Position numbers and translations under genes: made by a program. The notes under the pieces are model-generated. The model was given only the letters and a program-made list of their open reading frames with translations, was not told the DNA's origin and ran no database searches. Positions 1 to 55,613 of a DNA stretch of 64,000 bases are shown here, piece after piece. Position 1 is the first letter of the stretch; every line of letters begins with the position of its first letter. The stretch covers positions 62,001-126,000 of the forward strand of contig NZ_JBBYXL010000013.1 of assembly GCF_039655865.1 (NCBI RefSeq), read 5' to 3'. Source of the DNA: Prosthecobacter sp. SYSU 5D2 (lineage in GTDB: Bacteria; Verrucomicrobiota; Verrucomicrobiia; Verrucomicrobiales; Verrucomicrobiaceae).

Positions 1-644
1 GCTTCGACAAAGTTCATGTGAGTAGGATGCTCCGTATGGCGCAGCGCATCAAGGATGAGCGTGTCCACCCCTTCCAGCGCCTCCAATGTTTCCGGCGGAA
101 TGACCTTCGCATCGGGGATGTACGCGCACAGCTTGATGTCACGCCTGCTAAACAGGTAGCCAATGGTCTCCACCTTGCCATGCTGGACCGGCAGCGGTGT
201 GACCAGTGTTTCCCCCAGATGAAACGGGCCGTGGATGGGCTTCGGAAACGGTTTCAAATAACCCCGGTAACGGTTCTCCCCGTTAAAGGCAAAGGTGAAC
301 ATGCGCTCCAGCATGGCCAGGCACGAGGGCATCCCATAAATGGGCATGAACTGGTCTGGCTCGATGGTGAACCGGCGCAGGTCGTCGAAACCCGTCAGGT
401 GGTCCATGTGCGGATGGGTGAACAGCGCCGCATCCACCCGGCGGATGCCCGCACGCAGCACCTGGGTGCGAAAGTCCGGCCCCGTGTCCACCACCCAGCT
501 CTGCTCCGGTGTGCGCAGCCACAGGCTGGAGCGCAGGCGGTTGTCGCGCGGATCCAGGCTGCGGCAGGTCTCGCAGTCGCAGCCGATCATCGGGATGCCG
601 ACGGAGGTGCCGGTGCCGAGGAATGTAAGCGTTAGATCTGGCAT
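1..644 (-). CDS. MBL-fold metallo-hydrolase, PhnP-like (3' end cut by window edge)
   Basis: About 214 codons are visible, starting at the ATG at 644; the C-terminus lies beyond the left edge. The protein begins with a strand and a GTGTS loop. A GCDCETC cluster at residues 21-27 follows, matching the structural zinc site of PhnP-type phosphodiesterases. The metallo-beta-lactamase metal motif HPHMDH is at residues 77-82. The family hydrolyses cyclic phosphodiesters or related phosphate esters in the cytoplasm, using two metal ions. There is no phn operon in view, so a carbon-phosphorus lyase role cannot be claimed; PhnP-like proteins often occur alone as general cyclic phosphodiesterases. It is divergent from tcdA, with about 100 bases between the two starts. 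Family assignment is firm and substrate is inferred. Confidence 0.85.
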   Translation of the reverse strand, partial: MPDLTLTFLGTGTSVGIPMIGCDCETCRSLDPRDNRLRSSLWLRTPEQSWVVDTGPDFRTQVLRAGIRRVDAALFTHPHMDHLTGFDDLRRFTIEPDQFMPIYGMPSCLAMLERMFTFAFNGENRYRGYLKPFPKPIHGPFHLGETLVTPLPVQHGKVETIGYLFSRRDIKLCAYIPDAKVIPPETLEALEGVDTLILDALRHTEHPTHMNFVE

Positions 645-1828: not shown

Positions 1829-2866
1829 TCATCCTACAGGCGTCAGCACCACCTTCTGCACATCCAGCACGGCCGATTTCACCTTGTTCACCGGATTGAT
1901 CTGCAAGCGCTGCTTGCCCGGGGCCTTGATCTCGATCTCGCCCAGCGGGACGTCCTGCCAGTTTTGAAATCCGCCCGTGTCCTGCGTGGTGAATTTCAGC
2001 GTCTGGTCGGCATGCTTCACCTCCACCTCGCTGCCGTGGTTACCCCCGCCGCAGCCGTGGCTCACCGTCACCTTGTAGCGGCCGGGCTGGGCCACTTCAA
2101 ATTCCCATTCCGCCAGATCCTCTTCGGAGGTCCAGAAGCCCAGGCAGTTCTTTTCCGGCTTCGGCTCATAACGCATGTTCTCAGACCAAGTGATCGCATT
2201 TTTCGCCTCCAGGAGAATGCTACCATCCTCCGCCTGTTTCGGCATTTCCCCCTCACAGGTGGGGATGAGGGCGATTTCGTGGATCGTGAAGCTCGCGTCT
2301 TCAGTCGGCGGCGTCAGCAGTGAAAAAGGCACATCCCCCGGCTGCGGAATGTACAAGTCCCCCAGATACGTTTTACGGGGCTTGGGGGAGGACGAAAGAG
2401 ACTTCTTCACCACCAGCTCCCCCATGCGAAACTGCATGCCCAGCGCCGCCCGGTTCAGCGTGTAGGTCAGCCGAACCTGATAACGGCCCCAGCGCTTCGC
2501 CTTAAATTTGGTACCCGTATAGGTCTCCCAATGCGCCCCGTTGCTGTGATCCCAGCTGTCCGGACCCATCACGATGATTCCCCGGCTCGGCATGTCTTTG
2601 CGCTCCAGCGGCTCATCACTGCCGAAGCCGGCAATGTCCACCGCCTCAGGGAACGTGGTCTCCGCCATCACCGGCTTTTCCTCGGCGGGTACCTCCTTCT
2701 TTTCAGAGGTTTCTTCGGCATTTGCCACCGCCTGGGTTTTCTCAGGCTGATTCACCTCCGTCTTGGCGGGAGCCTCTTCAGCGGTTTTCGTGGCGGCCTT
2801 GGGTCCGCAGGAGGCCAGGCTCAGCGCCAGAGGGATAACAAGAAATGAAAGGGGCTTACGAATCAT
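1829..2866 (-). CDS. Lipoprotein with tandem carbohydrate-binding-like beta-sandwich domains
   Basis: A 345-residue predicted outer-envelope lipoprotein. The signal peptide ends in a lipobox LASC with the acylated cysteine at residue 20. A low-complexity Ala/Glu/Lys linker follows, to about residue 75. After it come two related modules of the type seen in fucosidase- and sulfatase-associated domains. The first has HWETYTGTKFKAKRWGRYQV. The second has WEFEVAQPGRYKVTVSHGC followed by GGGNHGSEVEV. A role in binding glycans or wall polymers is an inference from the fold pattern; no catalytic motif is visible. The ATG at 2866 was chosen because it directly precedes the lipoprotein signal; an upstream extension would add a non-signal leader. 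It is divergent from the GntR regulator at 3062. Confidence 0.75.
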   Translation of the reverse strand: MIRKPLSFLVIPLALSLASCGPKAATKTAEEAPAKTEVNQPEKTQAVANAEETSEKKEVPAEEKPVMAETTFPEAVDIAGFGSDEPLERKDMPSRGIIVMGPDSWDHSNGAHWETYTGTKFKAKRWGRYQVRLTYTLNRAALGMQFRMGELVVKKSLSSSPKPRKTYLGDLYIPQPGDVPFSLLTPPTEDASFTIHEIALIPTCEGEMPKQAEDGSILLEAKNAITWSENMRYEPKPEKNCLGFWTSEEDLAEWEFEVAQPGRYKVTVSHGCGGGNHGSEVEVKHADQTLKFTTQDTGGFQNWQDVPLGEIEIKAPGKQRLQINPVNKVKSAVLDVQKVVLTPVG

Positions 2867-3036
2867 GATAAATGGGGAAGAAGCATCGCTGCCGGATGTC
2901 AAAAACCGTCAGGGCGTGCCTCTGCAACGGGCGAAGCCCACCCTTCTTTAGCCTGAATCGCCTCCTATTGGCGATAAAAATAGGGAAAACAAAATCCAAG
3001 CTCCTTATCGAAAGAGTCTGGCCTTTCACGACGATT

Positions 3037-3052
3037 CACTGGCATACCAGTG
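3037..3052. promoter_or_regulatory. Palindromic operator candidate upstream of the GntR-type regulator
   Basis: A perfect six-base dyad, CACTGG-CATA-CCAGTG, ends ten bases before the ATG at 3062. GntR/FadR-type dimers bind short palindromes containing TGG...CCA-like half sites, often at their own promoter. Position and symmetry fit autoregulation and, through coupling, control of the downstream DUF1549/DUF1553 gene. Function is inferred. Confidence 0.45.
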
Positions 3053-3061
3053 CGATATCAT

Positions 3062-3754
3062 ATGTCCCGTCCCCTGTTATCCACCGCTTCGCCGACCGAT
3101 TCCCTCGCCCCGGTCCGCTTGCAATCCCGCGCTTATTCGGAGCTGCGCCGCCTCATCGTCTCTGGTGAATTCCCCCCCGGCACTTTCCTCTCGGAGCGCC
3201 AGCTCGCCGCCCAGCTCGGCATGAGCAAGACCCCCGTCCACGTCGCCCTGGAGCGCTTGGAGTCGGAGGGTTTTGTCACCATCTCCGCCCAGCAGGGCAT
3301 CGTCGTACGGGGCCTCAGCGTGGATGACATCGTGGACCACTACGAGCTCCGTGAAGCCGTGGAATCCTGGGTCGTCCGCCGCCTCGCTGGAAAGCTGAAT
3401 CCCGCCCAGCAGGCCGAATTGCAGGCCAATCTCCAGCACCAGCACGAGGCCCTCGCCACCTGGGATATGGTGCGGCTCATGCACTTGGATGAGCAGATGC
3501 ACTACCTCCTCTGCTCCTACCTGAACAACCGCGAAATCGCCTCTACCATGGAGCGCCTGCGCGATAAAATTCACCAGGTCATCCTCCGCGTCACCGAAAC
3601 TGACCGCACCCGCCCGGCCGAAAGCACCGCCGAGCACGTCCGCATCATCCAAGCCATACTCGACGGCGAACCGGACCTCGCCGCCCGCCTCATGACCGAG
3701 CATCTGGAGGCCGGCAAACGCCGCATTCTCAATCCCGAACGCTTCTCCCGCTGA
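3062..3754 (+). CDS. GntR family transcriptional regulator, FCD (FadR) subfamily
   Basis: A 230-residue regulator. The N-terminal winged helix-turn-helix spans about residues 18-80 and carries the GntR pattern LRRLIVSGEFPPG, LSERQLAAQLGMS, TPVHVALERLESEG and QQGIVV. The C-terminal all-helical FCD ligand domain follows (ELREAVESWVVRRLA, HLDEQMHYLL, ESTAEHVRIIQAI, HLEAGKRR). FCD regulators usually bind carboxylated sugars or organic acids, often in a metal-bound pocket. The stop codon overlaps the ATG of the next gene by one base (TGATG), so the two are translationally coupled. The DUF1549/DUF1553 gene is therefore a likely target. A GTG at 3050 would also be in frame, but it lies inside the palindrome. 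Confidence 0.9.
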   Translation: MSRPLLSTASPTDSLAPVRLQSRAYSELRRLIVSGEFPPGTFLSERQLAAQLGMSKTPVHVALERLESEGFVTISAQQGIVVRGLSVDDIVDHYELREAVESWVVRRLAGKLNPAQQAELQANLQHQHEALATWDMVRLMHLDEQMHYLLCSYLNNREIASTMERLRDKIHQVILRVTETDRTRPAESTAEHVRIIQAILDGEPDLAARLMTEHLEAGKRRILNPERFSR

Positions 3755-6183
3755 TGCGCCATTTCCTTCCAGTGCTGCTTCTGGCCACCCCGCTCAGCCT
3801 CGCAGCGGCCACCCCGGATTTCACCCAAGACATACTCCCCATCTTCCAGCAGCACTGCCTGGACTGCCACGGCCCGGACAAGCAGAGCGGCGGCATGCGC
3901 TTTGACCAAAAGCACGTCCCCCTCGCCGGCGGCGATTCCGGCACGCCCGCCATCACCCCTGGCCAGCCAGAGCACAGCCAGATGCTCCAGCGCCTCACCT
4001 CGTCCAGCAAGGACGACCAGATGCCGCCAAAGGGCGTCCGCCTGGCGCCTGAAAAGATCGCCCTCTTCCGCCAATGGATCGCCGCTGGTGCGCCCTGGCC
4101 AGAATCGGATTCGCCCAGCATCGCCTCATCAGAAACCAAACCCGCCTCCACCCACTGGTCTTTCCAGCCCCTCAGCGACCCCACACCGCCTAACGTCAAG
4201 GATGAAAACTGGCCGCTGAATCCCATAGATCGTTTCATCCTCGCCCGCCTCGAAGCCGAAGGCCTCACCCCCGCTCCCGATGCCACCCCCGCCGCCCTCA
4301 TCCGCCGCGCCACCTACGACCTCACCGGCCTCCCCCCCTGCCCCGAAGAAGTCCGCTCCTTTATCGGGGAGACCTCTGAAAATTCGTCATTCGACATTCG
4401 TCATTCGTCATTTGAATCCCTCATCACCCGCCTCCTCCAAAGCCCCCGCTACGGTGAGCGCTGGGGCCGCCACTGGATGGACTGGGTGCGCTACGCCGAC
4501 ACCGCCGGCGACAACTCCGACTACCCCATTCCCCAGGCCTACCTCTACCGGAACTACATCATCCAGTCCTTCAACGACGACGTGCCGTATGACCGCTTCC
4601 TCACCGAGCAACTCGCCGGAGATCTCCTTCCCACCAGCAGCCAGCAGGAAAAAAACCGCCTCACCATCGCCACCGGCTACCTGGCCATGGCCCGCCGATT
4701 CGGCTCCCTCGTGGAGCGTTACCCGCAGCACCTCACCATTGAGGACACGCTGGATAATCTTGGCCGCACTGTCATGGGCCTAACATTGAGTTGCGCACGC
4801 TGCCACGACCACAAGTTCGACCCTGTCTCCACCCGCGACTACTACGGCCTGTACGGCATCTTTGCCAGCACCCGCTACCCCATGCCCGGCCTGGAGCTCT
4901 TCCAGACGCAGAACGACTTCATCCCCCTCGTCCCCGAAAAAGAAGCCGCCCAAAAGCTCCAGCCCTTCCAAAAAGAAACCGCCCGGCTCACCGCCGAAAT
5001 GGAAAAGCTGCTCGCCGCCTGTGAGGACAAGGCCGTGGAAAATGCCCGCCGCGAGCGCGACGCCACCCTGGATGAACAGCGCCGCATGAAGGGCGACCTG
5101 GACCGCATGATGCTCAAGGCCCGCAAGGCCGGCGAAAACCTCGCCAAGCATCTGAAGACCCTCCCCGTCATCCCCACCGCCTATGCCGTCCAGGACCGGC
5201 AGCCCGTCAATGCCCGCATCCAGATCAAAGGCGAGCCCGACCGCCCCGGTGCTGAAGTTCCCCGCAAGTTTCTGGACATCCTCGGCGGCCAGCCATTGCC
5301 CCCGGAGGCCGCACAGACCAGCGGCCGTCTCCAGCTCGCCCAGTGGCTTACCCATCCGGAAAATCCCCTCACCTCCCGCGTCATCGTCAACCGCATCTGG
5401 CAACGCCATTTCGGCAGGGGCCTCGTCCCCACCACCAGCGATTTCGGCCTGCGTGGCGAGCCCCCCAGCCACCCTGAACTGCTCGACTGGCTCGCCCGCG
5501 ACTTCATCCGCAGCGGCTGGTCCATCAAGCACCTGCACCGCCTCATCATGACCTCCCGCACCTACCGTCTGTCCAGCCAGGACCGGCAGGAAAACCTCGC
5601 CGCCGATCCGTCCAACACCCTCCACTGGAAGTTCAGCCGCCAGCGCCTGGATGCCGAAGCCATCCGCGATACCCTCCTCCTCATCAGCGGCGCGCTGGAT
5701 CCCGCCCCGCAGACGCATCCCTACCCCATCCCGCCCGCCAAAGACTGGAAATATACCCAGCATCACCCCTTCAAGGACGATTACCCCAGCAACAAACGCA
5801 GCGTCTATCTCATGACCAAGCGCCTCACCGCCAAGCCCTACTTCCAGACCTTTGATGGCGCCGATGCCAACGTCTGCACCACCACCCGCGACAGCTCCGT
5901 CACCGCCCTCCAGGCCCTCTACTTCGTCAACGACTCCTTCGTCCACGAGCAGGCCCGCCTCACTGCCCAAAACCTCCTGGCTAACCAAAAGGACGACCAC
6001 ACCCGCCTCCATCATCTCTTCCTCACCCTCCTCTCCCGCGAACCGACCCCCGAAGAAACCACCCTCCTCCTCTCCCACCTCCAAAAAGTCCGCCAAACCG
6101 CCGCCAGCGATACCGACCATGAAGCCTGGTCCAGCCTCACCCGCAGCCTCTTCCGCCTGAACGAGTTCCTCTATCTCGATTAA
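3754..6183 (+). CDS. DUF1549/DUF1553 planctomycete-type cytochrome protein
   Basis: An 809-residue secreted protein of the large PVC family. A signal peptide occupies residues 1-19. A c-type haem motif, CLDCH, is at 35-39 in the planctomycete cytochrome C domain. DUF1549 follows at about 145-370, with RYGERWGRHWMDWVRYADT and CARCHDHKFDP. A charged helical stretch lies at 410-470, and DUF1553 runs from about 505 (NPLTSRVIVNRIWQRHFGRGLV) to near the C-terminus. Members usually sit next to DUF1501 genes and are associated with polysaccharide-degrading loci; the reaction is unknown. Here a GntR regulator precedes it and a DUF1501 gene follows after one small gene. Near residues 209-221 the protein carries an odd segment encoded by a tandem micro-repeat, listed separately. 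Confidence 0.93.
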   Translation: MRHFLPVLLLATPLSLAAATPDFTQDILPIFQQHCLDCHGPDKQSGGMRFDQKHVPLAGGDSGTPAITPGQPEHSQMLQRLTSSSKDDQMPPKGVRLAPEKIALFRQWIAAGAPWPESDSPSIASSETKPASTHWSFQPLSDPTPPNVKDENWPLNPIDRFILARLEAEGLTPAPDATPAALIRRATYDLTGLPPCPEEVRSFIGETSENSSFDIRHSSFESLITRLLQSPRYGERWGRHWMDWVRYADTAGDNSDYPIPQAYLYRNYIIQSFNDDVPYDRFLTEQLAGDLLPTSSQQEKNRLTIATGYLAMARRFGSLVERYPQHLTIEDTLDNLGRTVMGLTLSCARCHDHKFDPVSTRDYYGLYGIFASTRYPMPGLELFQTQNDFIPLVPEKEAAQKLQPFQKETARLTAEMEKLLAACEDKAVENARRERDATLDEQRRMKGDLDRMMLKARKAGENLAKHLKTLPVIPTAYAVQDRQPVNARIQIKGEPDRPGAEVPRKFLDILGGQPLPPEAAQTSGRLQLAQWLTHPENPLTSRVIVNRIWQRHFGRGLVPTTSDFGLRGEPPSHPELLDWLARDFIRSGWSIKHLHRLIMTSRTYRLSSQDRQENLAADPSNTLHWKFSRQRLDAEAIRDTLLLISGALDPAPQTHPYPIPPAKDWKYTQHHPFKDDYPSNKRSVYLMTKRLTAKPYFQTFDGADANVCTTTRDSSVTALQALYFVNDSFVHEQARLTAQNLLANQKDDHTRLHHLFLTLLSREPTPEETTLLLSHLQKVRQTAASDTDHEAWSSLTRSLFRLNEFLYLD
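4382..4413. repeat. TTCGTCATTC tandem micro-repeat inside a coding region
   Basis: Three to four imperfect copies of the word ATTCGTC or ATTCGAC lie head to tail and are translated in frame as a Ser/Phe/His/Arg-rich insert. Related words appear in intergenic gaps at about 20778 and 28299. The reading frame is kept. Confidence 0.7.
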
Positions 6184-47160: not shown

Positions 47161-49728
47161 TTAACGCTGGGGTGCTCCGCTGACATCGAGATCGGGTTGG
47201 GTATTCCAGCGCTTCTTCCAATCGGGCTTGTTGATCTTGGTGCGGAAGATGACGGTATTGTCCAGGGCCAGACTGTCGGTCCAGATGAACCTGGCACCGG
47301 CAAAGTCGCTTTCGAAATAGGGCTGCTTCGGGTCCACCTGTTCCTCGCTGTACTCCTTGGCGTTAGGCCAGGAGGCGTCGTCGAAGTCAACGGCCCACCA
47401 GTTGGTGGGGAGGGGTTCATGTTTGACCTCGGGGTTGGCGGTGTTGCTGTTGAGCGGGCCGTGGAAAAAGCTGCGGGCTTTCCAGCTGGCATCCGTCACG
47501 GTTCCATCGGCGAATTTGAGGATGAACCCTCCATCACCGATGTTGGTGCCGTATTCCATGCCGGTCTTGGGGTCGGCATTGTCTTTGGCGAGAACGGCGA
47601 GGGTCATGGGATACTCCGGAAGGAAGTCCACGCTGACGACATTGTGCGGAGTGAACTGGATGGGATCCACGGCGACCAGCCTTCCATTGACGTAGAGCAT
47701 GAACCAGTTGTCGGCATAGACATTGAGTTTCATCGTATCGCCGATGCCGGGCTTGATGAGGCCGCTTTGATCACCGCGTCCTTTGGGCTTTCCTCCTTTG
47801 CCTTCAGGTCTTTGGCGCGGCGGAGGGGAAGCATTCGAGGGCGTATCAACGGCACTGTCTGCACGCGAGTAAACGACACTCAGTTTGGCGTGACCGAGAA
47901 TCTTGCCCTGGATGGCTGCCAGCAGGACCTCGCGATTGACCTGGGAAGCTGGTTCAGCGAATGCCGACGGGGCAGAGAGGGCATAAACATGAAGCACGTA
48001 GGTCTTGGCACCTGGGCCTTTGGAATGCGGAGGTTCATAACCGGGGGCTCCCCGGAAACCAACGCCGGTTTTGCCAATCCCCTGGACATTCTTGGGCAGG
48101 ATGGTGACATCCGCCGGGATGTCCCAGAGGGTCCAGTAGCCTTTCATTTCATTGCCAGGCGCTTCGTGATCCATGATCAAAGCGAAACTCTGAGTGCCTG
48201 CGGGGGCTCCGCTCCAGCTCAGAGGCAGGGTGGAGCCGCTGCCATCCCCGGTATAGTCCATGGGCAGAGGACCGCCGTCCTCAACGACCGGGCTGGTGAG
48301 GATGAAAGCACCGGTGCTTTTCGTTTCGGGCTCCCTGCTCTGCTCCAAGGCATCCAGGCGACCGTCGTTGTTTTTATCCAGGGCAGTGAAGTCGGTGCGT
48401 GCTTTTTCCATGGCGCTGGCCAGGGAGCTGCCGTTTTTGCGTGCAGCAAAGTCACGCTTGGTGGCTTCGGCAAATTCATGAGCGGTGATGATGCCGTCAC
48501 CATTGGCATCCCTGGGGGTGCTGGATGAGGAGGAAGGGGAGGGTGCTGTGGTTTCGCGTGAGGGTGGCGCGGGGGGTGAATTGTCTCGCATGCCTTTGCC
48601 CTTCCCCTTGCCCTTTGCGTCACCCTTTCCCTTTGCATCACCTTTGCCGCCGCCCCCCTGGCGGGCAGTATAAACTTCGCGGGTGATGTCATCGCTCCCA
48701 TTGTTGTATTCGAAGGGGTAGGTGCCGTCGCCATTGATGGAATAGGTGATGGAGCGACGGCTGCCATTCAGGGTATAAGTCAGTTGGTAGCTGTTGGGGC
48801 CGGTGCTTTCAAAGCCCGTGATCACCGCTCCGCGCAGCGGTGGGGTATCTGGCCGCACACCCTGGGCACGGGGCTGGGGATCCACCTGACCGCCTGCTTC
48901 AACAACCTCACCGTGAAAACCGCCCAGGACGTAAGGATACTTCAATGAGGCATGGTAATGATAACCGGTGCCTGGGGTTTCGTGGCCGTGGCATACGTCC
49001 AGCTTGCCAATGGGAGAACCATCAGGCTCAGTGAGTCCATAGATCGGGTAACCATCCAGGGCATAGGCGATGGCCATGCCCTTGCCCACTACGTTTTGCA
49101 AATGCAGCGGTGCGGCATGGTAATGATAGTCATCCGCACGCCCGCAATGGCCGCCCCATTGGTCGAGTTCGCCGATTTCCTGGGACACTTCGCCCCGGTT
49201 GTTTTGGGGATTGAAGATGGGGATGCCATTCACGGCCAGGGCGATGGCCCCACGGAGGAAGCGGCCTTTGATCAAAGCGGGTTCTTTGGCCGGGACAGGA
49301 TGCAACGGGATGCGCCAGGCATTGTCACCGAAGTAGGCATGCGGCAGCGGAACCTGCTGCTGCCAGGCAGTGATGCCGGTCATCATGGGATGATCCGGCA
49401 GGCCATTGGAGCCGATGAAGAGGAAGTCCCGGTCCCACTTGATCTCCAGCTTGGGGAAGGCCTGAAACGGCAGCGATTGCGCCGGTGCTCCTTTCACATT
49501 GGCCAGGGCAGTCGCAGCGAGATTGAGGGTAGAGGCTGCGGAGGCTACCTGCGTCGGTTTGATTTCGCCGGAATGCCTGTGAGCTTGCTTTTGCTCCCAC
49601 TCGGCGAGGAGGTGGGCGCGCAGGGCTTCATCAAAAACGGGAGTCTCGCCTTGCTTCCAAGTATGGGCCGTGGCCGGCTGGATGGCGGCAAAACTGATGA
49701 GCCAGATGAAAAGGTAACGGCAGGTCAT
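47161..49728 (-). CDS. Large multidomain YHYH / EF-hand / PEBP-like secreted protein
   Basis: An 855-residue secreted protein (signal CRYLFIWLISFAAIQPATA). A YHYH domain has two copies of the tetrapeptide, at about 201-204 (DDYHYHAAP) and 256-259 (GTGYHYHASL). A Gly/Lys-rich low-complexity stretch follows at about 340-370. An EF-hand pair comes next, with DANGDGIITAHE at about 407-418 and DKNNDGRLDALE at about 451-462. A PEBP-like (YbhB/RKIP) domain has LPLSWSGAPAGTQSFALIM and GYWTLWDIPADVT. A second Gly/Lys-rich linker leads to a C-terminal lectin-like domain (YADNWFMLYVNGRLV) that ends near ARFIWTD. Such chains suggest a calcium- and metal-binding surface protein. The sulfatase gene follows after seven bases. 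Its function is unknown. Confidence 0.85.
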   Translation of the reverse strand: MTCRYLFIWLISFAAIQPATAHTWKQGETPVFDEALRAHLLAEWEQKQAHRHSGEIKPTQVASAASTLNLAATALANVKGAPAQSLPFQAFPKLEIKWDRDFLFIGSNGLPDHPMMTGITAWQQQVPLPHAYFGDNAWRIPLHPVPAKEPALIKGRFLRGAIALAVNGIPIFNPQNNRGEVSQEIGELDQWGGHCGRADDYHYHAAPLHLQNVVGKGMAIAYALDGYPIYGLTEPDGSPIGKLDVCHGHETPGTGYHYHASLKYPYVLGGFHGEVVEAGGQVDPQPRAQGVRPDTPPLRGAVITGFESTGPNSYQLTYTLNGSRRSITYSINGDGTYPFEYNNGSDDITREVYTARQGGGGKGDAKGKGDAKGKGKGKGMRDNSPPAPPSRETTAPSPSSSSSTPRDANGDGIITAHEFAEATKRDFAARKNGSSLASAMEKARTDFTALDKNNDGRLDALEQSREPETKSTGAFILTSPVVEDGGPLPMDYTGDGSGSTLPLSWSGAPAGTQSFALIMDHEAPGNEMKGYWTLWDIPADVTILPKNVQGIGKTGVGFRGAPGYEPPHSKGPGAKTYVLHVYALSAPSAFAEPASQVNREVLLAAIQGKILGHAKLSVVYSRADSAVDTPSNASPPPRQRPEGKGGKPKGRGDQSGLIKPGIGDTMKLNVYADNWFMLYVNGRLVAVDPIQFTPHNVVSVDFLPEYPMTLAVLAKDNADPKTGMEYGTNIGDGGFILKFADGTVTDASWKARSFFHGPLNSNTANPEVKHEPLPTNWWAVDFDDASWPNAKEYSEEQVDPKQPYFESDFAGARFIWTDSLALDNTVIFRTKINKPDWKKRWNTQPDLDVSGAPQR

Positions 49729-49814
49729 GCCACCATAAACACCGGTTCTGTAAAGGGATGATGAGGAAAGAGGCGGAGATTTGTTAAGAGATGGTAAAGC
49801 TGCCCGCTGTCCCT

Positions 49815-50081
49815 TCATTTCCCACCGGGTGGCGTGCGGTCATCGCCGAAGTATTTTTCACTGCGATAGCGCAACCACACGCGCAAAACCTGCGGCACCT
49901 TCTCGCGCTCCGCTTCGGTTAGCGTTTCATACAGCGTCATGGCCTTTTCCCGCTCGCCACGGCAGGCGCGGTTGTTATGGGCATCCCAATAGCTGCGGGC
50001 GGCCCGGATGCGGCGGCACACTTCCTTGATCAAAGCTGCCCCCGCGAGCGGCTTGTCGGAAGGCTTTTTCTTGGCAGGCAT
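49815..50081 (-). CDS. Small conserved hypothetical protein
   Basis: An 88-residue basic, soluble protein without signal peptide. It opens MPAKKKPSDKPLAGAALIKEV, and its centre is helical (RRIRAARSYWDAHNNRACRGEREKAMTLYETLTEAEREKVPQVLRVWLRYRSEKYFG). The helices are rich in Arg, Glu and Tyr, and the tail is Pro/Gly. It is not a recognised family. It is the third gene of the presumed sulfite dehydrogenase operon, starting 14 bases after the cytochrome stop. A possible role in that system is inferred from position only. The gap to the next gene downstream is 86 bases with no visible signal. Confidence 0.65.
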   Translation of the reverse strand: MPAKKKPSDKPLAGAALIKEVCRRIRAARSYWDAHNNRACRGEREKAMTLYETLTEAEREKVPQVLRVWLRYRSEKYFGDDRTPPGGK

Positions 50082-50535: not shown

Positions 50536-51801
50536 TCAGACGGCTTGGATGGCGATGCGGTGGCAGGTGTTGTTCAAGTAGCCCTGGGGATTCCAGCCGG
50601 GCAGCACCATGGGCTGGCTGCGGCCCTGGCTGTCCTGGGCGCGGGCCCAGATTTCATAGTAGCCTTTTTTGGGGAGCTTCAGAGCGGTGGTCCAGTGCTG
50701 CCAGGCATAGCGGTTGGCGGCGGGGCGGAGGTCGGCTTTCTGCCAGGTGATGCCGAAATCCACAGAGACATGCATCTCGCGGATGTCGCCTTCCCCGGTC
50801 CAGGCGTGGCCCCGCACGGTGAGGGCTTCACCAACGGGATGAGTGATGCCGGATATGGGGAAGGTGATGAGGGACTTCACCGGCATGGCGGCGATGACCT
50901 CCATGTCCTCGGCGGGCGGCTTGGTGCCAGGAGCGACGGGATAACGCGGCATGCGGTAGGAATGGCCGGTCATTTTTTCGCCATCGTGCTCGCGGTCGCG
51001 GACGAGGATGCGCTTAAGCCACTTGCCACAGGTGGAGCCTGCCCAGCCGCCGAACATGAGGCGCAGCGGATGGCCGTTTTGATAAGGGATGTCCTCGCCA
51101 TTCATGGCAAAGGCGATCAGGGTCTCGTCTTCCATGGCCTTGGCGATGGGGGCACCGCGTGAGATGGCGGACTTTTCGGGATTGCCGGACAGGTGGAAAT
51201 CGGCCCCGTAATAGCCGATGTAAACGGCATCCGGTTTGATGCCGACGTGCTTTAACACATCCTTCAAACGCACGCCCGTCCAGGTAGGGCAGCCGACGCC
51301 GCCGGTGGTCCACTGGGTGCCGGTGGCAGGGGGATTGAATTCGCTGCGGCCATTGCCGGCGCATTCCAGGACCATTTGCAGGGTGTGATGCTCGAACTTT
51401 TCCTTCAGTTCCTTGAGGGTAAAAGTGACGGGCTTTTCACAGCTCTCTCCCGCGATTTCCAGGGTCCATTTTTCGGGGTCGAGTGTTTCGGCAGCGGGCG
51501 GGAGGCCGTTATTGCGGATAAAAAGGTGTTTGGCGGGCGTGATCTCATCATCCAGCAGGTGGGCCGGTGTTTCGGCGACGAGGGGACGGTCTGTAAAAAG
51601 CGAGAGGCCCTCTTTGCCGGGGATGGTGAAAGGCTCGCTGCCCTGGGCGAGGGCGGTGGGGATGAGGCCAGCGGGCATTTTGTCGCCAAAAACGATCTCG
51701 GCACCCAGGGCGGCGCTCATGGAGGCGAGGCTCAGCCTGCTGAGAAAGCTGCGGCGGCTCACGGGATCTGGCTGGCTGGGTTGTGCATCAGAATTCATCA
51801 T
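50536..51801 (-). CDS. Molybdenum sulfite oxidase/dehydrogenase catalytic subunit (SorA/SoxC-like)
   Basis: A 421-residue enzyme with a twin-arginine signal (VSRRSFLSRLSLASM), so exported folded with cofactor. NGLPPAAETLDPEKWTLEIAG leads into the molybdopterin domain. Its cysteine ligand is in LECAGNGRSEFNP, and GGVGCPTWTGVRLKDVL and YGADFHLSG follow. The C-terminal dimerisation domain has RGHAWTGEGDIREMHVSVDFG and QHWTTALKLP. It oxidises sulfite to sulfate in the periplasm, passing electrons to the cytochrome encoded five bases later. Start 51801 (MMNSDAQ) or 51798; longer frames would overlap the divergent pseudokinase gene. Sulfite could come from sulfonates or thiosulfate; the sulfatases in the neighbourhood release sulfate, not sulfite. 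Confidence 0.9.
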   Translation of the reverse strand: MMNSDAQPSQPDPVSRRSFLSRLSLASMSAALGAEIVFGDKMPAGLIPTALAQGSEPFTIPGKEGLSLFTDRPLVAETPAHLLDDEITPAKHLFIRNNGLPPAAETLDPEKWTLEIAGESCEKPVTFTLKELKEKFEHHTLQMVLECAGNGRSEFNPPATGTQWTTGGVGCPTWTGVRLKDVLKHVGIKPDAVYIGYYGADFHLSGNPEKSAISRGAPIAKAMEDETLIAFAMNGEDIPYQNGHPLRLMFGGWAGSTCGKWLKRILVRDREHDGEKMTGHSYRMPRYPVAPGTKPPAEDMEVIAAMPVKSLITFPISGITHPVGEALTVRGHAWTGEGDIREMHVSVDFGITWQKADLRPAANRYAWQHWTTALKLPKKGYYEIWARAQDSQGRSQPMVLPGWNPQGYLNNTCHRIAIQAV

Positions 51802-51954
51802 CGGGGATATAACGTGTTCCGGCCGTTGTTCTTCAAGAGGAAGATGCGGTCCGTGAACTGGGATGAGCCACCAGATAAAGATGGAGATCAGGCCCTGCTT
51901 GTAAAAAGTCTGTGGGGCGGTTATCTGAAAGCTTTGTTCTGTTGAACTGAGTCC

Positions 51955-53376
51955 ATGTCTGAGCTTCCCAACCTTGAATTTCCCTCTGTGACGGAGCTTG
52001 CTGCCTGGCTGCCTCAATTTGAGGTGCTGGAGCAGATCCAGGCCGGGGAGGATGCTGCCTGGTATCTGGGACGGCAGACGGGCCTGGACCGCGAGGTTCT
52101 GATTGAAGTGATTCCCGAACCCGAGGAAACGGTGGCTCATGCGCTCCTGGAGCGGTTGCGGCGGCGGGCACGGCTGGTCCAGCCGACCATCACGGCGGTT
52201 TATGATTTCGGGCGGCTGCCTTCCGGGCCATTTTACCTGGTGGGAGAACACGTGAACGGGGTTTCTCTGGAGACTCTGATTGAGCAGCGGCAGCTTAAAC
52301 CGAAGACTGCTTTTCCCCTGGCGCTGCAGATTTGTGAAGCACTGCAAATCGTCCATGACCTCCCCATGCCGCACGGTGCATTGAGCACCCAGACCATCCT
52401 GGTCACCCCTGAAGGGCAGGCCAAGCTGACGGGGATCGGCATGGTGCAGATGGAGACGGGGGAGCTTTCCTGGCTGAAGCCGTTCCGGGGCAGCTTCACC
52501 GGCGACATCCGGGCGCTCGGATATACACTGCACTGGATGTTCGCCAAATGTGCACCGGATGCAGACGGACGGCTTTCGCGGGATCTGCCACCGGCATTTG
52601 CCACGGTTCTGCGCCGCTGCGTGGAGCCGGACGCTGCACGCCCGTTTACCCGGCCGGAGGATGTAGCAGAGGCTCTGAAAGAGGCGCTACGCGGAACCCA
52701 GGAAAAATCGGAACCCTCCACGCGCACCCGGATTGCGGTGGGCGCGGGGGCCTCCAGCCTGCCATCCCAGCCGCCGCCTGCCGCAGTTCCTCCGCCTCCA
52801 AAGGTGGTGCCCGGTCAACTCAAGCCCGTAGTGCGTCATTACCAGCCGACTTTGATGCAGCGGATGGACGCCTTTGTCTGGAAAGCTTTCAGCACGGGAT
52901 TGCACATGCTGATTACTCTGATCAGCGTCGGCAGCCTCATCCTGCTCATCATGTTCAAGGACCGTATCGTTTTTGAAGAGGATACCTCCCTGCCCATGGC
53001 CCAGTATGAAGAGGCTGGGTCTGAGGAAAAACCGATCCCGGCTGCTATACTGGGTGCGCTTCCCCAGGCTGAAGTCCTGTCTGCACCCGCGCCCGTCTCC
53101 AAGCCTATCACATTGCCGCCGCCCAAGCCAGAGCCTGTGCTGGATCCCATGGCCGATCTGCGGGCCCAGTACGTGGCGGCAGTCCAGACGGCGGCTAACC
53201 AGGCTCTTGAAAAGGTGCGGCTGGACGATCTGCCCTACCTCCAAAACGAACTGCAGCTGCTGCAAAGCGGAGGTGACATTCCGGCCATGGACGAGCCCAA
53301 CCTTCCTGCCAGCCTCAAAATACTGCGGCAGCGCTACCGGGAAGTAAAAGAAGGAAAAACATCGTCAGCGCCTTGA
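51955..53376 (+). CDS. Membrane-anchored protein-kinase-like pseudokinase
   Basis: A 473-residue protein. Residues 20-245 match the eukaryotic-like kinase fold: LLERLRRRARLVQPTITAVYDFG, FYLVGEHVNGVSLETLIEQ and LALQICEALQIVHD. The essential residues are gone, however. The Gly-rich loop is AGEDAAWYLG. The beta-3 Lys position reads IEVIP. The catalytic HRD is HGA in PHGALSTQTILV, and the DFG is TGIG. A Pro/Ala-rich segment follows at about 265-290. One transmembrane helix is at about 315-335 (GLHMLITLISVGSLILLIMF). The remaining extracytoplasmic part has a Pro-rich region and a helical end. Catalysis is unlikely; signalling or scaffolding is inferred. It lies 86 bases upstream of the CtpA protease start, in the same direction. 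Confidence 0.8.
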   Translation: MSELPNLEFPSVTELAAWLPQFEVLEQIQAGEDAAWYLGRQTGLDREVLIEVIPEPEETVAHALLERLRRRARLVQPTITAVYDFGRLPSGPFYLVGEHVNGVSLETLIEQRQLKPKTAFPLALQICEALQIVHDLPMPHGALSTQTILVTPEGQAKLTGIGMVQMETGELSWLKPFRGSFTGDIRALGYTLHWMFAKCAPDADGRLSRDLPPAFATVLRRCVEPDAARPFTRPEDVAEALKEALRGTQEKSEPSTRTRIAVGAGASSLPSQPPPAAVPPPPKVVPGQLKPVVRHYQPTLMQRMDAFVWKAFSTGLHMLITLISVGSLILLIMFKDRIVFEEDTSLPMAQYEEAGSEEKPIPAAILGALPQAEVLSAPAPVSKPITLPPPKPEPVLDPMADLRAQYVAAVQTAANQALEKVRLDDLPYLQNELQLLQSGGDIPAMDEPNLPASLKILRQRYREVKEGKTSSAP

Positions 53377-53462
53377 AGCCCGCTGGCAAGGAAGAGGACC
53401 GGGCGAAAGCCAGCGCTCCATTTTCCTCTGTCACTTGTCTGCGGATGGTGCACAGTTTTCCC

Positions 53463-54896
53463 ATGCGCCTTGTTTCAGCCCTCACCATCGTTTTGGCCGC
53501 AGGCTTCTGCCTCCCGGCTGCCTGCCCTGCCGCGCCCAGTGAGGCCCCCAAGAAGCTGGAAGGCGAACCCGCTGCTGCAAAACCAGGCGACGAGGCCCCC
53601 ACGACGACGCCAGAAAAAAAGGCCGCCGCACCCGCCGTCACGCCGCCACCACAGGACGCCTACCGCCAGATGGAGCTGCTGACCCGGGCGATGGAAACGA
53701 TCCGCCAGAGTTATGTGGACGAATCCAAAGTGACCTACGAGGAACTGGTGGAAGGGGCGCTGGAAGGCATGCTGCGCAGGCTGGACCCGCACTGCGAATA
53801 CATGGGCAGCAGTCTTTTTGAGGACATGCAGCGGGAGCAAAGCGACACGTCTGAGGGAGTCGGCATCACGGTCTCCCTGCGGGAGGGGACGCTGACCATC
53901 ATCACCGTGCGCGACGACGGCCCTGCCGCCCGGGCCGGGGTGCTGGCCGGAGACCAGATGGTGCGCATCGGCGACGTGCTGACGGACAGCGTCGGCGTGG
54001 CCGAGGCCATCCAACTGCTGCAGGGCAAGGCCGGAGAGACGATGAAACTGACGGTCCGCCGTCCAGGCACCCGGCAGTTTTTGGAATTCAGCCTGATGCG
54101 TGAAACCCTCTCGGAAACTTCGGTGCACGATTCCATGCTGCTGGTCCCCAAGCTGGCCGGAGATTATAAAATCGGTTATGCCCGTATCTCCCAGTACACA
54201 CATTCCACGGCAAGAGATCTGAGCGACTCCCTGAATGAACTGGAGAAGGCAGGCATGCAGGCCTTTGTGCTGGATCTGCGAAACAACCCCGGCGGCCTGC
54301 TGGACAGCGCCGTGGCCGTTTGCGGTGAATTTCTGCCTGAGGGCACGGTGGTGGTGACCACGGAAGGCCGCATCGCCTCCCAAAATCCCCCTCCCTACCG
54401 CACCCCAGCACGTGAAGGCAAAAAGCCGCGCCGGTATCCTGTGGCGGTGCTCATCAACCACGGCAGCGCCAGTGCGGCCGAGATCACCGCCGGGGCGCTC
54501 CAGGACCTGAAACGCGCCATTGTGGTGGGCACGACGAGCTTCGGCAAGGGGTCCGTCCAGAGCATCCTGCCCATGAAGAACGGTGCCGCCATGCGCCTGA
54601 CCACGGCCAAGTATTACACGCCAAGCCATCGCACCATCCATGAGCACGGCGTGGAACCGAACATTGTCTCCGTCCTGACCACCGATGAAGAAATGAAAGT
54701 GGCCAAGTGGCGCAACAGCCACGGCACGGGTGAAGCGGCGGCCATTGAGATCGCCAATCTGGGTGACAAGCAGCTTGAGCGTGCGGTGGATGCGCTGAAG
54801 GGGGTGCTGGTCTTTGAGTCGTTTCAGGCCAAGGCCACTCCCGTGCCTCCGCCAGATGTTCCGCGCGCCCTGCCTGCCAAGGATAACGCGCGCTGA
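53463..54896 (+). CDS. C-terminal processing peptidase, S41 family (CtpA/CtpB)
   Basis: A 477-residue periplasmic protease. The signal LVSALTIVLAAGFCLPAACPAA is followed by a Pro/Ala-rich stretch. The helical cap comes next: QMELLTRAMETIRQSYVDESKVTYEELVEGALEGML, RLDPHCEYM. A PDZ domain follows at about 150-220 (GVGITVSLREGTLTIITVRDDGPAARAGVLAGDQMVRIG). The peptidase core has LDLRNNPGGLLDSAV and GSASAAEI, with the nucleophile Ser at about residue 337. TTSFGKGSVQ follows, with the general-base Lys at about residue 362. The pair S337/K362 has normal spacing. It trims or degrades periplasmic proteins. The start at 53463 places the signal at the N-terminus. The context suggests that it works with the membrane pseudokinase next to it. 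Confidence 0.93.
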   Translation: MRLVSALTIVLAAGFCLPAACPAAPSEAPKKLEGEPAAAKPGDEAPTTTPEKKAAAPAVTPPPQDAYRQMELLTRAMETIRQSYVDESKVTYEELVEGALEGMLRRLDPHCEYMGSSLFEDMQREQSDTSEGVGITVSLREGTLTIITVRDDGPAARAGVLAGDQMVRIGDVLTDSVGVAEAIQLLQGKAGETMKLTVRRPGTRQFLEFSLMRETLSETSVHDSMLLVPKLAGDYKIGYARISQYTHSTARDLSDSLNELEKAGMQAFVLDLRNNPGGLLDSAVAVCGEFLPEGTVVVTTEGRIASQNPPPYRTPAREGKKPRRYPVAVLINHGSASAAEITAGALQDLKRAIVVGTTSFGKGSVQSILPMKNGAAMRLTTAKYYTPSHRTIHEHGVEPNIVSVLTTDEEMKVAKWRNSHGTGEAAAIEIANLGDKQLERAVDALKGVLVFESFQAKATPVPPPDVPRALPAKDNAR

Positions 54897-54947
54897 TAAG
54901 GGGAATCGCCGATATTCCAAACATCTGGTTAATCTTTGCCCGTGCAC

Positions 54948-55613
54948 ATGCCCTCCCAAGCTCCACTGGCGCTCATCACGGGCGGGGCGGGGGATCTGGC
55001 ACAGGCCATCCGCCGGGAATTGGAAAACCAAGGCTGGCAGGTGCATGCACCAGGCCGGGAAGAGATGGATGTCACGGACAAGACTCAAGTGCAGGCCGTC
55101 ATGGCTGCCCTGCCACGGCTGGATCTGCTGGTTCACAATGCCGGTTTTCTGCGGGACGCCATGCTGACGAAGATGACGGAAAACGATTTCCAGGACGTGC
55201 TGGAGGTTCATCTCAAAGGTGCCTTTCTGGCGGCCCAGGCAGCGCTTAAAATCATGGTGAAGCAGCGACAGGGGCACATTGTGAACATCGGTTCATTTAG
55301 CGCGCTTTCAGGCCCAGCCGGCCAGGGAAACTATGCCGCGGCGAAGGCAGGCCTGATCGCACTCACGCAGAGCCTGGCAGCCGAATACGGACCCCGAAAC
55401 ATCCGGGCCAACTGCGTACTGCCGGGATTTCTCGAGACAAAAATGAGCCGCCCGTTGTTGACGAAACATAGACCGAAGATTGAGGCAGCCCATGCGTTGG
55501 GGCGGTTGAATACCGTTGAGGACGCAGCGCGTTTCATCACGTTTCTGCACACGATGGAGCATGTCAGCGGACAGGTGTTTCAGCTCGATAGCCGGATTCG
55601 CAAGTGGACATGA
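54948..55613 (+). CDS. SDR family oxidoreductase, 3-ketoacyl-ACP reductase-like
   Basis: A 221-residue cytoplasmic enzyme of the short-chain dehydrogenase/reductase family. The cofactor loop is TGGAGDLAQAI. HNAG follows in LLVHNAGFLRDAM, and the catalytic Ser is in NIGSFSALSGPAGQ, Tyr and Lys in GNYAAAKAGLIALT. The tail reads NCVLPGFLETKMSRPLL and VSGQVFQLDSRI. It resembles FabG, with which it shares the order of motifs, but no fatty-acid gene cluster is around it. The substrate is unknown. The chosen ATG at 54948 begins the first beta strand; the earlier TTG/GTG codons would add four residues. It follows the protease after 51 bases. Confidence 0.88.
   Translation: MPSQAPLALITGGAGDLAQAIRRELENQGWQVHAPGREEMDVTDKTQVQAVMAALPRLDLLVHNAGFLRDAMLTKMTENDFQDVLEVHLKGAFLAAQAALKIMVKQRQGHIVNIGSFSALSGPAGQGNYAAAKAGLIALTQSLAAEYGPRNIRANCVLPGFLETKMSRPLLTKHRPKIEAAHALGRLNTVEDAARFITFLHTMEHVSGQVFQLDSRIRKWT

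Follow-up and report, generated by a model that had tools for sequence, protein, structure and literature searches.

Introduction

Can the fold of a receptor kinase serve a cell at its membrane after the residues of catalysis have been lost? This question is raised by a gene in a stretch of 64,000 nucleotides from Prosthecobacter sp. SYSU 5D2 (NCBI RefSeq assembly GCF_039655865.1, contig NZ_JBBYXL010000013.1, positions 62,001 to 126,000 of the forward strand), which is the whole of the DNA analysed here and is called the window. The gene encodes a kinase-fold membrane protein, and a gene for a CtpA-type S41 protease follows it on the same strand. An original prediction, made from the sequence alone, held that the protein is a pseudokinase and that this non-catalytic module may gate a step of periplasmic proteolysis. 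Our analysis points, with a probability of about 0.6, to a conserved single-pass membrane pseudokinase that acts as a non-catalytic scaffold or co-receptor and is derived from Hanks-type receptor kinases of the Verrucomicrobiaceae. Such a role is more plausible than that of a simple CtpA switch, because CtpA adjoins the gene in only part of the lineage.

The function is known for few of the membrane pseudokinases of bacteria. The present family offers a clean case, in which catalytic loss is complete throughout the lineage and active kinases with the same extracytoplasmic module are encoded in the same genome. It thus provides a natural comparison for the role of a receptor-kinase fold without catalysis, together with a testable CtpA pair in the Verrucomicrobiota.

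Loss of catalytic residues throughout the family

In 48 genomes of the genus, 19 full-length family members were identified, including the window protein. None of them keeps the beta-3 Lys, the alpha-C Glu, the HRD Asp or the DFG Asp of an active Hanks-type Ser/Thr kinase. The beta-3 Lys is replaced by Glu in five members and by Arg in 14; in all 19 the alpha-C Glu has become Arg, HRD has become HGA, HGT or HGC, and the DFG Asp has become Gly or Cys. The glycine loop is lost as well. The window protein has a short activation segment without APE, and in every member the segment that runs from the DFG-Gly to the alpha-F Asp measures exactly 23 residues, compared with 38 in an active relative from genome G026. 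This relative is 36–38% identical to the family and has K, E, HRD and DFG intact. In an alignment covering 12 of the 19 members (A1), His140, Gly141, Lys157, Trp173 and Asp184 are invariant. Within the subgroup of the window protein, the aligned residues Glu51 and Arg67 may form a charge-swapped version of the Lys-Glu bridge.

In a tree with six active kinases, the 19 pseudokinases are set apart by a branch with 100/100 support, and the G026 kinase lies across it. Because the catalytic positions are lost in all 19 and G026 lies outside, the whole family consists, by sequence, of pseudokinases, and no homologue with intact residues falls within it. The original prediction, which described a kinase-fold protein lacking the beta-3 Lys, the HRD Asp and DFG and named conservation of these losses in homologues as a check, agrees on both points with the alignment (Table 1).

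The fold itself has been retained. In the AlphaFold2 (AF2) model, the block means of confidence are 89–97 for residues 11–200 and 78–94 for residues 201–250, indicating a confident kinase fold. Pfam assigns PF07714 above its gathering cut-off (E=1.3e-7), and PF00069 matches residues 25–166 below cut-off (E=1.2e-5). A Foldseek search with the kinase-fold model returned the kinases PknA and PknB first, and re-ranking by VIA-align placed Stk1/PknB at the top (Z 22.9). The predicted model, the structural matches and PF07714 are therefore all those of the bilobal protein-kinase fold of Hanks-type Ser/Thr kinases.

Selection and distribution

The ratio of nonsynonymous to synonymous substitution rates (dN/dS) of the pseudokinase gene is 0.06–0.27 in all eight pairs by NG86 and 0.07–0.34 in six of the eight by YN00. 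These values, well below 1, indicate purifying selection, and because the 19 full-length homologues agree as well, the open reading frame (ORF) is not a chance frame. The homologues alone rule out a chance ORF, and dN/dS rules out a pseudogene.

The pseudokinase is present in 22 of the 48 genus genomes. A CtpA tree was built from 38 of the 44 genus genomes that have CtpA. All 18 genomes in one half of this tree have the pseudokinase, and none of the 20 in the other half does. The 18 include three fragments at contig ends (G059, G060 and G006); in G059 and G060 a looser search recovered the C-terminus of the pseudokinase directly upstream of CtpA. In the 26 genus genomes without the pseudokinase, a profile of its C-terminal helical module (see below) gave a best match of 2.4e-13, compared with 1e-16 to 1e-37 for family members, a search that an N-terminal-only fragment could escape. 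An order-wide search of 386 genomes at E<=1e-75 found matches in 19 genomes, all in one of 50 genera. Because four candidates were scored per genome, absence outside the genus is firm only for close orthologues. The records in which the family was found (12 loci) belong to the Verrucomicrobiaceae; several are labelled Prosthecobacter and one Brevifollis gellanilyticus.

The pseudokinase tree resolves two clades, with supports of 94/99 for clade 1 and 82/82 for clade 2. Clade 1 comprises nine genomes, of which seven group on the pseudokinase tree; the position of the other two (G059 and G060) comes from the CtpA tree. Clade 2 comprises 11 full-length members and the fragment in G006.

Domain organization of the pseudokinase

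Residues 311–340 are the sole stretch of the window protein above 1.6 on the Kyte-Doolittle scale (19-residue window), and each homologue likewise has a single hydrophobic region above this threshold. In the AF2 model, a long helix of residues 300–334 spans this segment and is followed by a low-confidence stretch and three C-terminal helices (398–419, 426–437 and 452–470). The kinase fold is predicted to face the cytoplasm and the C-terminal helices the outside. The single transmembrane helix and the proline-rich extracytoplasmic part described in the original prediction are both recognizable; 12 of the 56 residues at 341–396 are proline, though the cytoplasmic linker 253–297 is likewise rich in it (11 of 45). 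These linkers are less conserved across the family than the kinase lobes, the transmembrane part and the helical module.

Table 1 Features of the pseudokinase locus (positions in the window)
Feature	Position	Strand	Detail	Basis
Membrane pseudokinase gene	51955..53376	+	ATG start, 473 aa	ORF, Pfam, alignment, AF2 model
Kinase-fold domain without catalytic residues, predicted cytoplasmic	51988..52710	+	about residues 12–252	AF2, Foldseek, VIA-align, alignment
Glu in place of beta-3 ATP-binding Lys	52105..52107	+	codon 51	alignment
Arg in place of alpha-C Glu	52153..52155	+	codon 67	alignment
HGA in place of HRD	52372..52380	+	residues 140–142	alignment
GIG in place of DFG	52432..52440	+	residues 160–162; 23-residue activation segment begins	alignment
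Juxtamembrane part and single transmembrane segment	52846..52974	+	residues 298–340; best 19-residue window 316–334	
Proline-rich linker, low-confidence in model, predicted extracytoplasmic	52975..53142	+	residues 341–396	
Three-helix module common to active receptor kinases, predicted extracytoplasmic	53143..53364	+	residues 397–470	
CtpA-type S41 carboxy-terminal processing protease	53463..54896	+	477 aa; hydrophobic N-terminus (1–25) signal-peptide-like	
SorA-type sulfite dehydrogenase, divergent neighbour (context only)	50536..51882	-	start codon chosen by the analysts	

The helical-module profile, which covers about 76 positions from the C-terminus and was built from 15 sequences, matches the family and, with lower scores, many further proteins of the genus (matches occur in 35 of 56 relatives and 3 of 14 genera). 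Several of these non-family proteins are kinases with intact motifs. One is a 1103-residue kinase of the window's genome (locus L160; G000:C1, 1294–4605, + strand), in which the module (E=5e-14) is placed before a C-terminal 3-keto-disaccharide hydrolase domain. This active receptor kinase resembles the pseudokinase in its kinase domain and its helical module, whereas it differs in having intact VAIK, HRD, DFG and APE motifs, a large extra part and the hydrolase domain. Because the module is common to active receptor kinases, the pseudokinase looks like a receptor kinase stripped to a kinase fold, a membrane anchor and the helical module. A 961-residue ORF cut by a contig end (L164, 5375–8260, - strand; G011:C97) carries the module without a kinase match, which suggests that proteins other than kinases may have it too.

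Pfam scanning of the 15 module sequences gave matches to six families in one or two members each, all weak (best E 0.0034), and none is credited. Foldseek with the module alone returned 57 PDB matches at E<=10, of which none reached E<=0.001. No likeness to a known protease adaptor is thus seen, which does not in itself prove a difference; a tetratricopeptide-repeat (TPR)-type adaptor was considered as a candidate, and the absence of a significant match taught nothing about it.

Relationship to known pseudokinases and receptor kinases

The pseudokinase does not belong to the PASTA receptor kinases (PknB/Stk1). It scores 60 bits against NF033483, over the kinase part only, compared with a cut-off of 450, and no PASTA repeat was matched by Pfam at E<=0.01.

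Membrane pseudokinases as such are already known. The Ser/Thr pseudokinases of bacteria were reviewed in 2025; the review describes ActPs1-3, GLW, CP1, DYD and DLHK, with MviN and EssB cited as examples of scaffolds (PMC12599244). Words beginning with Verrucomicrob or Planctomycet do not occur in PMC12599244. Our residue-by-residue comparison covered ActPs3 and GLW among these groups. Rv3910/MviN (ActPs3) is similar in its kinase fold, three degraded motifs, activation-loop deletion and membrane linkage, and the window family has the features listed there for ActPs3, including a C-terminal transmembrane region (PMC12599244). However, the residues differ. The family has VLIE or VMIR, HGA (HGALSTQT-like) and GIG-like motifs, in contrast to VALT and Lsidhpsr in MviN and, among three ActPs3 members given there, VALT, Lsidhpsr or Lsidhpdr, and Y-- or FPG (PMC12599244). 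The family also lacks the MurJ part, and identity to Rv3910 is 15–17%. In the Foldseek ranking the Rv3910 pseudokinase domain takes places 12, 13, 15, 18, 19 and 26; it is absent from the best 50 VIA-align rows, which are PknB, PknA, PknI and eukaryotic kinases. According to the same review, the phosphorylated tail of MviN recruits an FHA protein (PMC12599244).

EssB/YukC is also alike, being described as a monotopic membrane pseudokinase with a degraded glycine loop and a reduced activation loop; EssB acts as a scaffold, its own role being in the type VII secretion system (PMC12599244). The GLW pseudokinases of Proteobacteria have GLW for HRD and Leu or Trp for the beta-3 Lys, whereas the window family has HGA, HGC or HGT and Glu or Arg, and hence falls outside that group. 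Among the titles listed in a search of the literature on bacterial and verrucomicrobial pseudokinases, CtpA and Prosthecobacter kinases, with subscription journals and preprints outside its scope, none describes this family.

A proposed scaffold or co-receptor and the alternatives

As a scaffold or co-receptor, the protein would work without catalysis. In the cytoplasm its kinase fold might bind signalling partners, such as active kinases or FHA proteins, for both of which the genome has genes; in the periplasm the helical module might bind or cluster partners. The adjoining gene would contribute no more than a periplasmic partner that varies by clade: CtpA in the clade of the window, and a protein with a pyrroloquinoline quinone (PQQ)-type propeller in another. 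Several points weigh against this interpretation. Any partner of the pseudokinase is putative. Of the 22 pseudokinase-bearing genomes 17 were scanned with the module profile, and 13 of these gave no second match at E<=0.001, the exceptions being G000 (the window's genome), G009, G018 and G057; module-bearing active kinases thus do not track the pseudokinase, and no dedicated partner kinase emerges. Finally, the residues would still allow non-canonical nucleotide binding or a novel enzymatic activity of the kind found in SelO or SidJ.

The alternative that survives best, although we would put it short of an even chance, is that the neighbours are incidental, the pseudokinase being a stand-alone signalling gene whose flanks reflect inherited gene order. 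This explanation is compatible with a scaffold. The type of neighbour follows the clades. A secreted PQQ_2 (BamB-like) propeller gene lies directly downstream in nine of the 12 clade-2 genomes (the exceptions are G005, G007 and G006), the sulfite reductase gene CysI adjoins the pseudokinase in six of the seven clade-1 genomes with upstream sequence, LeuB lies upstream in seven clade-2 genomes, and six of the 22 genomes have neither CtpA nor a PQQ gene near. However, the immediate downstream gene is often kept where the flanks have changed, namely CtpA in G063 and the PQQ gene in G025 and G057, which lack LeuB. Such retention is what co-transcription would predict, and pseudokinase and CtpA may be co-transcribed.

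A rather unlikely alternative is that the pseudokinase senses the state of the cytoplasm or envelope and that its extracytoplasmic helices recruit or activate the adjoining CtpA, in the manner of the lipoprotein partner of Pseudomonas CtpA. An activating partner of CtpA, LbcA, is indeed reported. In five genomes CtpA is directly downstream on the same strand, at gaps of 86 (G000), 65 (G018), 54 (G063), 59 (G059) and 40 bases (G060), with each CtpA start placed at the conserved MR in its signal-like N-terminus. It lies further downstream on the same strand in two more, at 1.9 kb (G034) and 3.4 kb (G056), where a divergent cytochrome and SorA gene pair intervenes, together with a 450-residue ORF in G056. 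Comparison of stretches of the window and of G063 further showed, among the matches listed, no other homology than weak sulfatase-type matches and the antisense frames of both genes. With G019 and G009 carrying CtpA on other contigs, linkage extends to seven of the nine clade-1 genomes. In contrast, 15 of the 22 pseudokinase genomes are unlinked to CtpA, and nine of these have the PQQ-propeller gene in its place. CtpA occurs in 44 of the 48 genus genomes whether or not the pseudokinase is present; the 20 genomes of the CtpA tree without the pseudokinase are among them. A match to a PQQ protein is found in 47 of 48, some at only about 35% identity. Because nearly all genus genomes have both, presence says little and adjacency is what informs. 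The helical module, moreover, has no significant PDB match, which leaves its difference from known adaptors unproven. An obligatory CtpA partner, tried as a candidate, is ruled out by the unlinked genomes and by the breadth of CtpA.

The co-occurrence of the gene pair put forward in the original prediction therefore holds in part, directly in G018, G063, G059 and G060 and at short distance in G034 and G056, and fails in the 15 unlinked genomes. The same applies to gating. A conserved membrane pseudokinase stands, and in one clade it may control CtpA; such control is not the function common to the family. A broader variant, in which the dead kinase fold would read the cytoplasmic state and couple across the membrane to a same-operon effector, CtpA or the PQQ-propeller protein by clade, we regard as doubtful and unlikely. 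If it were right, the protein would be a receptor whose action rests on the binding and exchange of partners and not on phosphorylation.

Novel, non-kinase catalysis in the kinase fold, on the pattern of AMPylation by SelO or glutamylation by SidJ, is very improbable. The fold and the five invariant residues of the alignment would be consistent with it. However, the family has lost the glycine loop, beta-3 Lys and DFG Asp, whereas SelO and SidJ have a VAIK-type Lys and a metal-motif Asp (PMC12599244 Table 1). Decay of a functionless kinase gene, which the loss of every catalytic residue might suggest, can be practically dismissed, because it is contradicted by dN/dS in all eight NG86 pairs, by a segment length and an Arg67 fixed in 19 of 19 members, and by its occurrence in every one of the 18 genomes in its tree half.

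The CtpA gene and its surroundings

The window CtpA is an ordinary member of the CtpA/Prc S41 proteases (TIGR00225), scoring 285 bits against a cut-off of 218.6. Pfam finds PDZ and S41 domains, and the protein has the Ser337/Lys362/Gln366 arrangement, in which Ser337 is presumably the nucleophile. The S41 protease with a complete Ser/Lys pair 86 bases on, as first proposed, is thus confirmed; the gap runs from the pseudokinase stop at 53376 to the CtpA ATG at 53463. An alternative TTG at 53373 would make CtpA overlap the pseudokinase, and the sequence upstream of the ATG is unconserved in G018 and G063. A weak terminator-like site in the gap (53401–53418, + strand) lies within shuffled expectation (five found; mean 3.1, sd 2.0). 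A scan of 51800–55000 showed no sigma-70-like promoter, which has little meaning in this phylum.

In at least seven genomes of the pseudokinase-free half or unplaced (G030:C12, G002:C20, G013:C175, G028:C44, G023:C18, G012:C70 and G031:C192), CtpA lies about 8–13 kb from two tandem kinase genes; in G030 (L117) both match Pkinase well.

Two CysI versions, only about 40% identical, adjoin the pseudokinase in different clade-1 genomes, one in tandem and one divergent (L032 10012–11736, L034 9645–11513 and L106 9162–11153). CysJ is next to CysI in G034, and CysI of the window's genome is elsewhere, on C1. Neither CtpA nor a PQQ-propeller gene stands beside the pseudokinase in G064.

Kinases of the window's genome

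The window's genome (5.87 Mb) has PF00069 matches at 23 places, 20 of them above cut-off and the window pseudokinase below. By eye, 19 of the 23 proteins keep the Lys and both Asp, with one HCD and two DIG variants. The degenerate ones are the window pseudokinase, L198 (C16:25843-26670) and L199 (C1:594473-594820). A kinase-like protein at C6:180050 has a HADPHPGN motif, which we take to be ABC1-like. There are six FHA matches in this genome.

L198 keeps a CAVK lysine and has HGN in place of HRD. The best other match to the pseudokinase within the genome is an intact-motif kinase that has a PSCyt1 (planctomycete cytochrome c) domain C-terminal to its kinase domain (L110, C6:371000-378000; ORF 2432–4198, - strand). 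Elsewhere in the window, 47161–49818 on the - strand encodes a large protein with YHYH and phosphatidylethanolamine-binding domains and EF-hand-like matches below cut-off.

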